DNA from: a virus
Virus record (IMG/VR): IMGVR_UViG_3300046010_005515
Span: 1 to 26,123 of that record
Reading direction: 5' to 3' (one strand)
Length of the DNA: 26,123 bases
Shown here: positions 7,760 to 25,406 of the stretch, one piece after another
Layout of the letters: each line of letters opens with the position of its first letter
Position numbering within the stretch: position 1 is the stretch's first letter
The notes under the pieces: model-generated
Databases searched by the model: none
Seen by the model: the letters and a program-made list of their open reading frames with translations, nothing else
Told to the model about the DNA's origin: nothing
Translations under genes and position numbers: made by a program

Positions 7760-8449
7760 TTACGCCTCACTAAAATTAGGGAACCCATTAAAGGGAACCG
7801 CCGTTTCAAAACGTGCCTCACAACCGCCTACCGTCTTACTACAGCGATCTAGGGCTTGCGTCGTGACTTCGTTAAACTCGTCGAAGTATTGCGTCCCTGC
7901 GTAAGGGCAAGGGTTGACATCGGCGATGACAAAGCTGGACGTATCCGCATTCCAACGGCGATAGATGTGATTGCAATAGTTCACCATTTGGTTTTTAGGG
8001 AACTGCTGACGGTTTGCTAGCTCCATTGCCGTTATTAGCTCGAACTCAATAGCGACGCTTGTTTGGCTTGTAATTTGGTTAATATAAAACGTGTCATAGT
8101 TCACGAACTCATCCGTAATTGTAGGGGTGATGTCGTCTAACTCATTTCGTCTTACACGAATCCTTGTAAACTTACAGTTCTGCAAGCCCCTGTATTCGTT
8201 GATGCCACCAATAAGCAACGCTTGCAAGTTCGACACTACAAACGTCGGACGTGGGGCTTTTCCGCTTTCAATCTCGAAGCCTTGAGCATCAATAGGAAAC
8301 GCCGTGTAAGTGTTGCCGTTAAACACAATGTTTGTACGGTTTTCGTGGCATGAAGGGCTTAGGTAAATAATCCCACCGCCATAAATAGCCGTGTCGATTT
8401 GGTACAGGGTGACAACAGAGCCAAAGCTAGGGAGTTGAGCATCAAGCAA
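7760..8449 (-). CDS. L: Minor tail protein L (iron-sulfur type)
   Basis: This is the lambda gpL homologue. The longest open frame reaches 8587, but that part overlaps M completely. The likely start is the TTG at 8449, nine bases after AGGGAGG, giving LDAQLPSFGS with initiator Met and 229 residues, close to lambda L (232). Family segments are YTAFPIDAQGFEIESGKAPRP and the following VSNL. Four cysteines in the C-terminal third, in the contexts YCNH, NPCPY, RCSK and GGCEARF, match the spacing class of the lambda L iron-sulfur cluster ligands. The gene overlaps the M stop by eight bases. The start is less certain than the gene itself. Confidence 0.88.
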   Translation of the reverse strand: MLDAQLPSFGSVVTLYQIDTAIYGGGIIYLSPSCHENRTNIVFNGNTYTAFPIDAQGFEIESGKAPRPTFVVSNLQALLIGGINEYRGLQNCKFTRIRVRRNELDDITPTITDEFVNYDTFYINQITSQTSVAIEFELITAMELANRQQFPKNQMVNYCNHIYRRWNADTSSFVIADVNPCPYAGTQYFDEFNEVTTQALDRCSKTVGGCEARFETAVPFNGFPNFSEA

Positions 8450-22550: not shown

Positions 22551-22560
22551 TAGGTAACAC

Positions 22561-22590
22561 AAAAGCCCCCGATGATAAGTCGAGGGCTTT
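22561..22590 (-). terminator. Rho-independent terminator of the moron gene
   Basis: The arms AAAGCCC (22562-22568) and GGGCTTT (22584-22590) pair over seven bases, continued after one C/A mismatch by CGA/TCG around a seven-base loop. On the minus strand the stem is followed by a T-rich run (TTTTGTGTT). It lies about 50 bases beyond the stop of the minus-strand gene and directly before the candidate late promoter. Confidence 0.75.
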
Positions 22591-22638: not shown

Positions 22639-23238
22639 TCAGTTTTTCAAGCGGTTGTCAACAACAAAGCTTTCTCTCGTTGCTTGGTCTTCAATGGTAA
22701 GCTGAACGGCTGGTTTCTGAAAGTTGTACTTGGCGAGTTGAGATTTAAGCACTGGCTTCTTAGACTGACTAACAAGCGTCGCAAAAGTGAATGACTGCAG
22801 AGGGGGGACTTCCACATAAACGACTTGGTCTTTAAACTTGGATGTCATCATGCCGACTTCACGCTTGGCGTTGTTGTTTTCAATCACAACAAAAGGAGTC
22901 ATTACCAAAGCCCCAACAATACCACCACCAAACGTTACCAGACTAAGCGGTATTCCAACAGCCCACAACAAACCAACCCCTGAATGATCCAAGTCTAAAG
23001 CCGAATAAGCCCCTGTGCTATTAACGCCATTTTGCACCGATCCATTTAAGATGCGAACAGGATTCTTGGAATTATTGGAAACGGTAATCTTGTAAGCGTT
23101 GAATTGCCGTTTGACCTTGCCACTCTTAATCTCCACATCCTGCACATCAATCTTAATATCATCCTTGCCAGCCAAAGCCAAACACGGCGTGACAAGTAAA
23201 GCAAAAGCCAAGTAAAGGCTCATCAATCGTTTATTCAT
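22639..23238 (-). CDS. Moron: exported/membrane protein of unknown function
   Basis: The start at 23238 (MNKRLMSLYLAF) lies behind AAAGGA, giving 199 residues; the in-frame ATG at 23271 is at the predicted transcription start. Residues 1-23 form a Sec-type signal peptide (basic NKR, hydrophobic core, LALA before Gly24). The mature part begins with a Lys/Asp-rich beta region (IKIDVQDVEIKSGKVKRQ). A hydrophobic, glycine-rich segment near 86-118 with TFGGGIVGALV could be one or two membrane spans, and the C-terminal domain includes YVEVPPLQSFTFATLV. It has its own promoter and terminator and an orientation independent of the phage programme. Superinfection exclusion or lysogenic conversion is possible, but the family is unrecognised. 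Confidence 0.8.
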   Translation of the reverse strand: MNKRLMSLYLAFALLVTPCLALAGKDDIKIDVQDVEIKSGKVKRQFNAYKITVSNNSKNPVRILNGSVQNGVNSTGAYSALDLDHSGVGLLWAVGIPLSLVTFGGGIVGALVMTPFVVIENNNAKREVGMMTSKFKDQVVYVEVPPLQSFTFATLVSQSKKPVLKSQLAKYNFQKPAVQLTIEDQATRESFVVDNRLKN

Positions 23239-23279
23239 GGTATATCCTTTCCTATCGTTTGGCACTTCCAAGCTATACC

Positions 23280-23400: not shown

Positions 23401-23467
23401 TTCACAACGCTTTTTTAACTTTTTTAAAAGACTGCTATATATATATTTATTTATAAATATATTTTAT
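23401..23467. other. AT-rich stretch with perfect palindrome
   Basis: This stretch is almost entirely A and T over about 60 bases, far more than its surroundings. At 23441-23462 the arms ATATATTTAT and ATAAATATAT form a perfect inverted repeat around TT. It adjoins the hexamer repeats and lies between leftward and rightward transcription units. Such easily melted DNA beside tandem repeats is typical of replication origins, and could also bind a regulator. No function is proven. Confidence 0.6.
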
Positions 23468-23474
23468 AACTTTT

Positions 23475-23516
23475 ACCATTACCATTACCATTACCATAAC
23501 TATTACTATTACTATT
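23475..23516. repeat. Tandem hexamer repeats (ACCATT / ACTATT)
   Basis: Seven consecutive six-base units are visible: three ACCATT, one ACCATA, then three ACTATT. The array is followed at once by ACTGCTAG, the start of a second repeat set. The two blocks of identical units suggest local expansion of a binding site. It lies just right of the AT-rich palindrome in a gene-free region, so an iteron or operator role is plausible. Confidence 0.8.
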
Positions 23517-23517
23517 A

Positions 23518-23553
23518 CTGCTAGATTTGCTAGGTTTTGCTACAGTTTGCTAG
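23518..23553. repeat. Helically phased GCTA repeats
   Basis: The core GCTA occurs at 23520, 23529, 23539 and 23549, the last three within TTTGCTAG, TTTGCTAC and TTTGCTAG. Spacing of 9, 10 and 10 bases places the sites on nearly the same face of the helix. This is expected for cooperative protein binding, for example by an initiator or repressor. The sequence itself is certain; the function is inference. Confidence 0.75.
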
Positions 23554-23617
23554 AAAAGCTGAAACTCCTCCAAATGATGTATTCTACAAATAAATGCTTC
23601 CCTTTTATAAACAAGTC

Positions 23618-23629
23618 TGTTATTATATT
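23618..23629 (+). promoter_or_regulatory. Extended -10 promoter for the structured RNA
   Basis: TG at 23618-23619 is followed after one base by TATTAT (23621-23626), with TATATT overlapping at 23624-23629. No convincing -35 lies at the right distance, which is normal for extended -10 promoters. Transcription would begin near 23633, just before the first hairpin of the downstream RNA. Confidence 0.5.
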
Positions 23630-23632
23630 CAT

Positions 23633-23757
23633 ATCGGTTGAAACAAGTCGACCCAATATATTTCCTCAAAACAATTTTGAAACACTTTGACCCGAAAGGG
23701 TTAGAGGGAATATATTAAATCACCTCTCTACCCAAAGTTCAGAGGTGACTTTTTTTG
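23633..23757 (+). ncRNA. Candidate structured small RNA, about 125 nt
   Basis: No meaningful reading frame is present, but the transcript from the upstream promoter would fold strongly. The first hairpin is GGTTGA/TCGACC (23636-23653). A long 13-bp helix with one G-U pair joins AATATATTTCCTC (23655-23667) to GAGGGAATATATT (23704-23716). It encloses a hairpin TGACCC-GAAA-GGGTTA (23688-23703), whose loop is a GNRA tetraloop and which stacks directly on the long helix. A terminator closes the unit. I could not match it to a known RNA family. The terminator arm includes ATCACCTC, identical to part of the 16S rRNA 3' tail. Antisense or protein-binding roles are both possible. Confidence 0.6.
23720..23756 (+). 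terminator. Rho-independent terminator of the structured RNA
   Basis: The arms TCACCTCT (23720-23727) and AGAGGTGA (23741-23748) are a perfect eight-base inverted repeat around a 13-base loop. The stem is followed by C and seven T residues (23750-23756). It reads rightward and ends the short unit that begins near 23633. Confidence 0.85.
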
Positions 23758-23809
23758 TTCTTTGACGTGTGAATAAAAAAACTTCCAGTTGATTTTAGCA
23801 AAAAGTGTA

Positions 23810-24010
23810 CTTAAAGCCTTGGGATTCTACGTTTGAATCGGGGGCTTAAAGGAGAGATATTGCATTTGGAAGGGCTTGACGTGACAAGCTAAATCTAACG
23901 GAAGAGTAGAAGTGGAGCATCCCTTGTTTATGAGGCATGGGGTGCGATGCTTTAAGCCTTCTCTACCCCTTTTTTAGCAGGTGTTCATTATAGTGACGTA
24001 CCACCCTGCT
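23810..24010 (+). promoter_or_regulatory. Candidate attenuator/antiterminator leader of the rightward operon
   Basis: Three related segments compete: A CTTAAAGCC (23810-23818), B GGCTTAAAG (23843-23851), and C CTTTAAGCC (23950-23958). A and B pair with one mismatch, in a hairpin closed by GATTC/GAATC. B and C pair perfectly over nine bases. C overlaps the 3' arm of the terminator-like hairpin at 23900-23967 that precedes six T residues, so B:C pairing would break it. A further hairpin AGCAGG/CCTGCT (23976-24010) follows. A 15-codon frame (23930-23977, MRHGVRC...) spans the terminator loop and could be a leader peptide. This is read by eye, without an energy calculation. Confidence 0.45.
23900..23975 (+). 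terminator. Probable intrinsic terminator within the leader
   Basis: GGAAGAG (23900-23906) pairs with CTCTACC (23961-23967) with one A/A mismatch. This is extended by AAG/CTT and, after an internal loop, by AGCATC (23916-23921) with GATGCT (23946-23951). CC and six T residues follow. An alternative inner stem, GCATCCC/GGGGTGC, is also possible. It lies about 110 bases before the first gene of the rightward operon, so read-through must occur if the operon is transcribed from further left. Confidence 0.5.
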
Positions 24011-24055
24011 ACTAAAGGGGGTAAAGAAGATTTTAGTTACAATAAAGAAAAGCGG

Positions 24056-24070
24056 TGCGAAAGTATCGCA
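24056..24070 (+). promoter_or_regulatory. Small hairpin next to a ribosome binding site
   Basis: TGCGA and TCGCA pair around the loop AAGTA, ending two bases before GGAGGG (24072-24077), the ribosome binding site of the gene at 24085. The hairpin leaves that site free and could mark or protect the mRNA 5' region. It may equally be bound by a phage protein. Confidence 0.5.
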
Positions 24071-24084
24071 TGGAGGGATGAATT

Positions 24085-24234
24085 ATGAGTATTGAACAAT
24101 GGAGCAGCGAAATCCAAGGCTTTATTTCGGGCTTGGAAAATCTTAAATCAGAGCATGACCGCTTGCTCGCAAGAAACAATCAATTGCTTGTAGAAAATGC
24201 CGAACTAGAAAAACGGATTGAGGAGCTTGAATAA
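24085..24234 (+). CDS. Small coiled-coil protein, 49 residues
   Basis: ATG at 24085 lies seven bases after GGAGGG. The product starts MSIEQWSSEIQGFISGLENL and ends in a regular heptad pattern rich in Leu, Glu and Asn (NNQLLVENAELEKRIEEL), as in short leucine-zipper coiled coils. It likely forms dimers or trimers. It overlaps the next gene by one base (TAATG). Its first 30 residues resemble the start of the gene at 25763, suggesting a shared partner. Too short to assign to a family; possibly a small regulator or adaptor. Confidence 0.7.
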   Translation: MSIEQWSSEIQGFISGLENLKSEHDRLLARNNQLLVENAELEKRIEELE

Positions 24235-24854: not shown

Positions 24855-25380
24855 TTTTTTCAAACCCAAAAAACAGCCCTTGACTTTCAAGCAAGGCTTT
24901 AAACATTGCCAGCTGGCTATTGATTACTGGCAAGGGCAAGGCAAAAGCTTAATTGAAGCCGTCGCTTTGCTTCAAGAGGCGTTAAGGTGTGATCCGCCTG
25001 AATCGCCCGAATATCAAAAAGGCTACGAAGCTTACCTTGAACAGTGCATCAAGGTTGTAATGACTCAACAGGAACAAATCCCAGTGAACACACCACCCGA
25101 TTTAGCGTGTGACCTGCTTGAGTTCTTAGACGACCCAGTGGTGGAGCCATACGACAACGGCTTCAGATTGGCGGAAAAACATTTTGATGGATTGCTTCAA
25201 GAAATGGAAGATGCTAAAGCCGTCCACGCTTACATGGTGCTTCACCGTCAACGTCTGAAAAAAGGGATGTCGACGGAGGAGCGATTCGGTTTTCATGCGT
25301 TTCTAGTCAAAGTTGCGGACAACCTAGACCGCCGTGAAGCCCTTGAAGCCCAATGGATGTATGGGCGTGAAAACGCCTAG
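24847..25380 (+). CDS. Hypothetical helical (TPR-like) protein, 177 residues
   Basis: The likely start is GTG at 24847, five bases after AAGGAGG; the upstream ATGs of the open frame (24817) lie inside the previous gene. The N-terminus is MFSFFKPKKQPLTFKQGFKH. A repeat-like helical segment follows (QLAIDYWQGQGKSLIEAVAL, then LQEALRCDPPESPEYQKGYE, about residues 22-61), reminiscent of tetratricopeptide or Sel1 repeats. The C-terminal half is charged helix (LLQEMEDAKAVHAYMVLHRQ). Repeats of this type usually mediate protein binding. The family match is weak and the function unknown. Confidence 0.72.
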   Translation: MFSFFKPKKQPLTFKQGFKHCQLAIDYWQGQGKSLIEAVALLQEALRCDPPESPEYQKGYEAYLEQCIKVVMTQQEQIPVNTPPDLACDLLEFLDDPVVEPYDNGFRLAEKHFDGLLQEMEDAKAVHAYMVLHRQRLKKGMSTEERFGFHAFLVKVADNLDRREALEAQWMYGRENA

Positions 25381-25406
25381 TTTACGAATAAAGAAAGAGG
25401 TAAAGC

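Follow-up and report, generated by a model that had tools for sequence, protein, structure and literature searches.

A folded RNA element ahead of a phage early operon and its possible role as a transcription attenuator

The stretch of DNA analysed here (the window) is a contig of an uncultured phage from IMG/VR, 26,123 bases long, in which the segment 23633-23757 separates a structural operon that runs leftward from an early operon that runs rightward. A preliminary description had taken this segment, which we call RNA1, for a free-standing RNA gene with its own promoter and terminator, and the question raised by the locus is whether such a unit is a gene in its own right or the beginning of the operon that follows it. 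The outcome of phage infection depends on leaders that halt RNA polymerase or let it go, as in lambda N/nut, HK022 put and P4 immunity, and a promoter-RNA-terminator unit spotted by eye may likewise be an attenuated leader. We consider that RNA1 is, by a narrow balance of probability, the first part of an untranslated leader that serves the rightward early operon and acts as a transcription attenuator; of the two readings, a stand-alone small RNA (sRNA) gene is the less likely, and an early leader of the attenuator type, having a second and larger structured domain, is the better one.

Folding of RNA1 and of the region 3' to it

The segment 23633-23757 is a real folded RNA element. Its MFE is -39.4 kcal/mol (z -5.64), a stability reached by none of 200 shuffles, and among 1,042 windows of 125 nt taken from both strands it was one of the top two structured sites, the other being 23908-24032. 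Adjoining the expected start site is a hairpin that the preliminary description had overlooked (H1, 23636-23653, plus strand; GGTTGA-AACAAG-TCGACC). This is followed by a core (23655-23716, plus strand), in which a helix formed by two 13-nt arms (23655-23667 and 23704-23716) surrounds a small hairpin (23666-23680) and a second hairpin (23686-23705) with the GAAA tetraloop that had been described, in the form GACCC-GAAA-GGGTT. The arms do pair, with one G-U among the pairs, as expected for the proposed 13-bp helix, but the MFE structure keeps only 11 bp of this outer helix, its last two pairs taking other partners, alongside an 8-bp GAAA hairpin. Similarly, the judgement that this organization is unlikely by chance holds for the fold as a whole but much less for the helix alone: helices of at least 13 pairs arose in 47 of 2,000 shuffles (p ~0.02), and helices of 15-17 bp occur elsewhere in the window, so that helix length by itself is weak evidence. 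A 26-codon frame beginning with TTG (23638-23718) spans the helix; having no Shine-Dalgarno sequence and a leader of only ~5 nt, it was rejected as a leader peptide.

The 3' end of the element is an intrinsic terminator (23720-23757, plus strand), which proved to be just as first described, with an 8-bp stem TCACCTCT/AGAGGTGA (23720-23727/23741-23748) followed by a C and seven T. The stem-loop has a free energy of -12.3 kcal/mol, and the terminator shows no sequence change across the three phages that carry it (see below). The 5' arm of the stem includes most of ATCACCTC (23719-23726), a sequence with a single occurrence in the window, which had been recognized as identical to the anti-Shine-Dalgarno tail of 16S rRNA and proposed to bind the GGAGG sites of this phage. 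The match is present in the terminator arm, but its availability for such sites is disfavoured because all but its first base are paired within the 8-bp stem, and we therefore rejected titration by the anti-Shine-Dalgarno match as the main function of the element.

The structure extends past 23757. A larger multibranched RNA (RNA2, 23758-24050, plus strand), which was missing from the preliminary description, occupies the space from the terminator to the ribosome-binding region ahead of the first early gene, and it contains 23908-24032, the other of the top two structured sites. The 327 nt from the terminator to the ATG at 24085 (23758-24084) fold with -107 kcal/mol (z -5.61), and none of 100 shuffles was as stable. 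The main part of RNA2 (23783-24046) has a free energy of -85.7 kcal/mol on the plus strand as against -67.7 kcal/mol on the minus strand, and RNA1 too folds better on the plus strand, which points to an RNA made in the rightward direction. The gene that follows RNA1 and RNA2, the first of the rightward early operon (24085-24234, plus strand), encodes a coiled-coil-like protein of 49 aa; in the relative L020 its place is taken by a related 73-aa gene.

The strand preference also bears on the notion that the locus works at the level of DNA, as a set of operator palindromes and/or as a portion of a replication origin, and that no RNA made from it is functional. The arms do overlap promoter-like hexamers, and an origin-like array, AT-rich and with iterons, is located immediately 5' (23432-23560) and is found again ahead of a replication-type gene in G003. 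However, the many G-U pairs, the advantage of the plus strand (~18 kcal/mol for RNA2, and present for RNA1 also) and the intrinsic terminator all argue for an RNA, and make a purely DNA-level role improbable.

Conservation and homologues

About a dozen close phages were gathered from IMG/VR by TerL, early-gene and pattern scans, and the element was found in only two of them, L020 (3300005805_000276) and L018 (3300035680_000102). RNA1 is 99-100% identical in these homologues: L020 has the same sequence throughout, and L018 differs by the single change G23650A, which converts a U-G pair of H1 into U-A and so keeps the pair. The core, comprising the helix and its enclosed hairpins, has the same sequence in both. 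In RNA2 there are 2-3 changes per homologue in 265 nt, none of them compensatory. The substitutions of L018 are few within RNA1 and RNA2 (4 in 390 nt) but frequent across the promoter plus linker (12 in 101 nt; Fisher p 3e-6), and the first early gene diverges from its second codon; the folded parts hence look constrained, though the high identity of three near-identical sequences could partly reflect recent exchange. Given this near-identity, no covariation signal can be obtained from them.

Wider searches yielded no further copies. A blastn search of 50,697 phage records and 72,556 plasmids returned no homologue, and in IMG/VR and GTDB genomes pattern scans, both exact and gapped, recovered L018 and L020 only, the remaining matches being due to chance. 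Five loci, L019 and L021-L024, have an 18-19-mer in common with the element in unrelated surroundings and were set aside. A covariance model of RNA1, run over ~1.2 Mb drawn from related and control loci, detected no copy beyond the three already known; a match in L038 (E 0.01) was rejected as a chance row of hairpins that stands at the end of a gene and has a terminator of its own. A scan of the window against Rfam 15 gave no match at the gathering score, including to the c4 antisense RNA family (RF01695), and the weak E-value matches in the region were to miRNA, snoRNA and similar families, far under their thresholds. The initial impression that the element fits no RNA family is thus borne out by the Rfam scan for RNA1, and applies equally to RNA2.

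The promoter module and its counterparts in relatives

The promoter ahead of RNA1 (23598-23626, plus strand) has the extended -10 that had been noted, TGtTATTAT (TG at 23618-23619 and TATTAT at 23621-23626), together with a weak -35, TTCCCT (23598-23603), at a spacing of 17, and would be expected to start transcription at ~23633. Its score of 9.1 ranks second within 23500-24085 and about tenth on the plus strand of the window; these scores measure matches to a sigma-70-type consensus, which phage promoters need not fit. By the same measure, no site scoring above 6.5 is present in 23758-24085, the interval that separates the terminator from the first early gene.

A natural comparison, which can tell what such a leader adds, is offered by close relatives that share the promoter but not the two RNA domains. 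Absence of RNA1 was counted only where the junction is visible (L005, L006, L007, L009 and L013), several of the contigs being fragments. In all five, a sigma-70-type promoter (score 9.8-13.8) is followed after 8-10 nt by a hairpin at the expected start of transcription and then by the early genes. L038, whose contig stops just past a second origin-like array, has the same layout of promoter and hairpin with a weaker promoter (score 5.4), and its hairpin has exactly the stem found in H1 of the window, GGTTGA/TCGACC. The promoter and first hairpin of the window (23598-23653) are accordingly the same module as in these relatives, where hairpins of the H1 kind occur in the early leaders without the rest of the element. 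Since the module stands directly before the early genes in the relatives, the promoter of the window would be the early-operon promoter, and since no good promoter is found in 23758-24085, the simplest interpretation is that early transcription starts at ~23633 and must pass the terminator. What sets the window apart is ~380 nt gained or kept between H1 and the early genes, namely the helix domain, the terminator and RNA2. The start-site hairpins of L005, L006, L007, L009, L013 and L038 have stems that differ in sequence, with equal placement, and are possibly mRNA-protecting 5' hairpins.

These observations tell against the free-standing RNA gene of the preliminary description, the supposed private promoter probably being that of the early operon, with none comparable recognised 3' of the terminator. 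A stand-alone sRNA could nevertheless be envisaged if RNA1 acted in trans, by base-pairing or on a protein, while the early genes used another, unrecognised promoter. The promoter-to-terminator layout, the very stable fold and the strict conservation would all suit such an RNA, and phage promoters can deviate from the sigma-70 consensus. In addition to the evidence of the module, however, the segment proposed for pairing, ATCACCTC, is sequestered within the stem of the terminator, and we regard a trans-acting sRNA as rather unlikely, though the most credible of the alternatives.

Several other sequence features were observed around the leader. A leftward promoter-like match (TCGACT-18-TATAAT, 23622-23651, minus strand) overlaps the rightward -10, and in L018 its -35 becomes TTGACT. 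A recurrent motif, GTT(T)AC..TAAAGAA, is seen just 5' of early genes at 24036-24049 and 25380-25395 in the window, and also in L006, L007 and L013. The structural operon is separated from the leader by a cassette (22559-22590 and 22639-23271) in which a terminator hairpin is combined with a gene for 210 aa, the latter being absent or replaced in L005, L006, L013 and L018. Pfam searches gave nothing useful for the leader genes or for this 210-aa gene on the left.

Proposed attenuation and comparison with known leaders

As an attenuator-type leader, the locus could work as follows. RNA polymerase would start at the early promoter near 23633 and make H1, and then the long helix with the GAAA hairpin. 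By default it would stop at the terminator (23757) and release a stable RNA of ~125 nt, most transcripts ending there, while read-through into RNA2 and the early genes would be partial or, in certain circumstances, complete. In this way the leader would probably set the frequency with which polymerase reaches these genes. The short RNA would then be at least a by-product of the attenuator. We infer such termination, read-through and regulation by the leader from the computed structure, terminator, promoter layout and conservation.

The most concrete candidate for a switch is a putative antiterminator (23698-23733, plus strand), in which GGG(U)UAGAGGG (23698-23708) would pair with CUCUCUACCC (23724-23733), breaking the 5' arm of the terminator and excluding both the helix and the terminator. 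This duplex has a predicted free energy of -15.4 kcal/mol; 21 of 2,000 shuffles gave one as good, and shuffling the core alone gave p 0.02. For the RNA folded in isolation, the terminator form (-39.4 kcal/mol) is more stable than the antiterminator form (-25.7 kcal/mol) by 13.7 kcal/mol, which counts against the attenuator. Under constrained folding, an antiterminator-like pairing was preferred only with 23655-23694 blocked from pairing, and with 23655-23689 blocked it already forms before the terminator is completed. A bound protein, a ribosome or an antisense RNA could conceivably keep 23655-23694 unpaired and so favour the antiterminator; no protein, ligand or leader peptide that would trigger the switch was identified. 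Also against the attenuator is a promoter-like match inside RNA1 (TTGACC-18-TATATT, 23687-23716), which outscores the early promoter (10.8 vs 9.1) and which, if used, would place the start of transcription inside the terminator hairpin.

Bacterial riboswitch and attenuator leaders combine an aptamer-like domain with a terminator and an antiterminator. The leader described here resembles them in its folded, aptamer-like domain, its terminator and its possible antiterminator, but differs in that RNA1 has no known ligand class, is negative in Rfam and lies in a phage early operon. By layout, the nearest working analogues appear to be Gifsy-1 IsrK, the P4 immunity leader and HK022 put. In Gifsy-1, the short RNA IsrK ends at a Rho-independent terminator and partial read-through produces a longer mRNA of the operon that follows (PMC4825925). 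A short phage RNA with an intrinsic terminator 5' of an operon is common to both, the likeness here being one of sequence layout only. There is no sequence or Rfam match between them, the gene that follows does not encode an antirepressor here, and IsrK has a proven activity, activation in trans of its own read-through mRNA.

The early operon of P4 is placed behind a structured untranslated leader (seqA, CI RNA, seqC) with premature termination (PMC4825925). This suggests a variant of the attenuator-type leader with an antisense trigger, in which terminated RNA1 or processed RNA2 would pair with the leader, in the manner of P4 CI RNA or IsrK, and set termination or translation. The order of the parts is the same, with an early promoter, a short terminated RNA, a second structured RNA and then the operon. 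As in P4, the leader is structured, premature termination is predicted and short segments are repeated with possible complements: TCTCTACCC is shared by the RNA1 terminator and RNA2, and near-complements to it occur as GGGUUAGAG in RNA1 and GGGGGUAAAG in RNA2. However, a shared 9-mer arises in 17.5% of shuffles, the RNA1-RNA2 duplex has p 0.17-0.18 against shuffles, and the longest exact complement is 7 nt where the shuffle mean is 7.8. In contrast to P4, then, the complementarity is at the level of chance, and we rejected P4-like pairing of RNA1 with RNA2. Moreover, neither RF01695 nor any other Rfam family is matched, and no tyrosine integrase that would point to lysogeny was found in the contigs of the relatives, which are fragments. 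An antisense mechanism of this kind hence appears doubtful.

HK022 put brings about antitermination in cis without a protein, in a manner dependent on the beta' zinc-binding domain. An equivalent here would require H1 and the long-helix domain to bind RNA polymerase and render it terminator-resistant. These two stem-loop domains, 1 nt apart and directly 3' of the early promoter, do recall putL, which has two stem-loops beside the early promoter that make polymerase resistant to terminators (PMC9378689). Unlike putL and putR, however, the element here is ~84 nt long and has a long A/U-rich helix, and a terminator follows it immediately, after only 4 nt. Two-hairpin layouts are common, and the relatives retain H1 alone, so that put-like antitermination seems very improbable.

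Under the preferred reading as an attenuator-type leader, the early operon of this phage would be preceded by two unclassified, strictly conserved RNA domains. The bolder proposition that RNA1 and RNA2 together represent a new class of two-domain early-leader RNA, ~420 nt long and deciding early-operon transcription in cis, is speculative and in our estimation unlikely. If it were true, the leader would be an RNA machine that perhaps senses a host factor or acts on RNA polymerase, and RNA2 would be a new ornate RNA, a switch or ribozyme-like, present so far in three phages.

The origin-like array upstream of the promoter (23432-23560) consists of an AT-rich palindrome, ACCATT/ACTATT repeats and then TTTGCTAG repeats. 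On the minus strand the ACCATT/ACTATT repeats read as TAA-TAG trinucleotides, resembling DnaA-trios, and the TTTGCTAG repeat has a different copy number in L018 and L020. The array repeats occur a second time in L016 (14708-14796, equivalent to G003 8074-8141), just 5' of a DUF6291 (PF19808) gene, which may be a replication gene.
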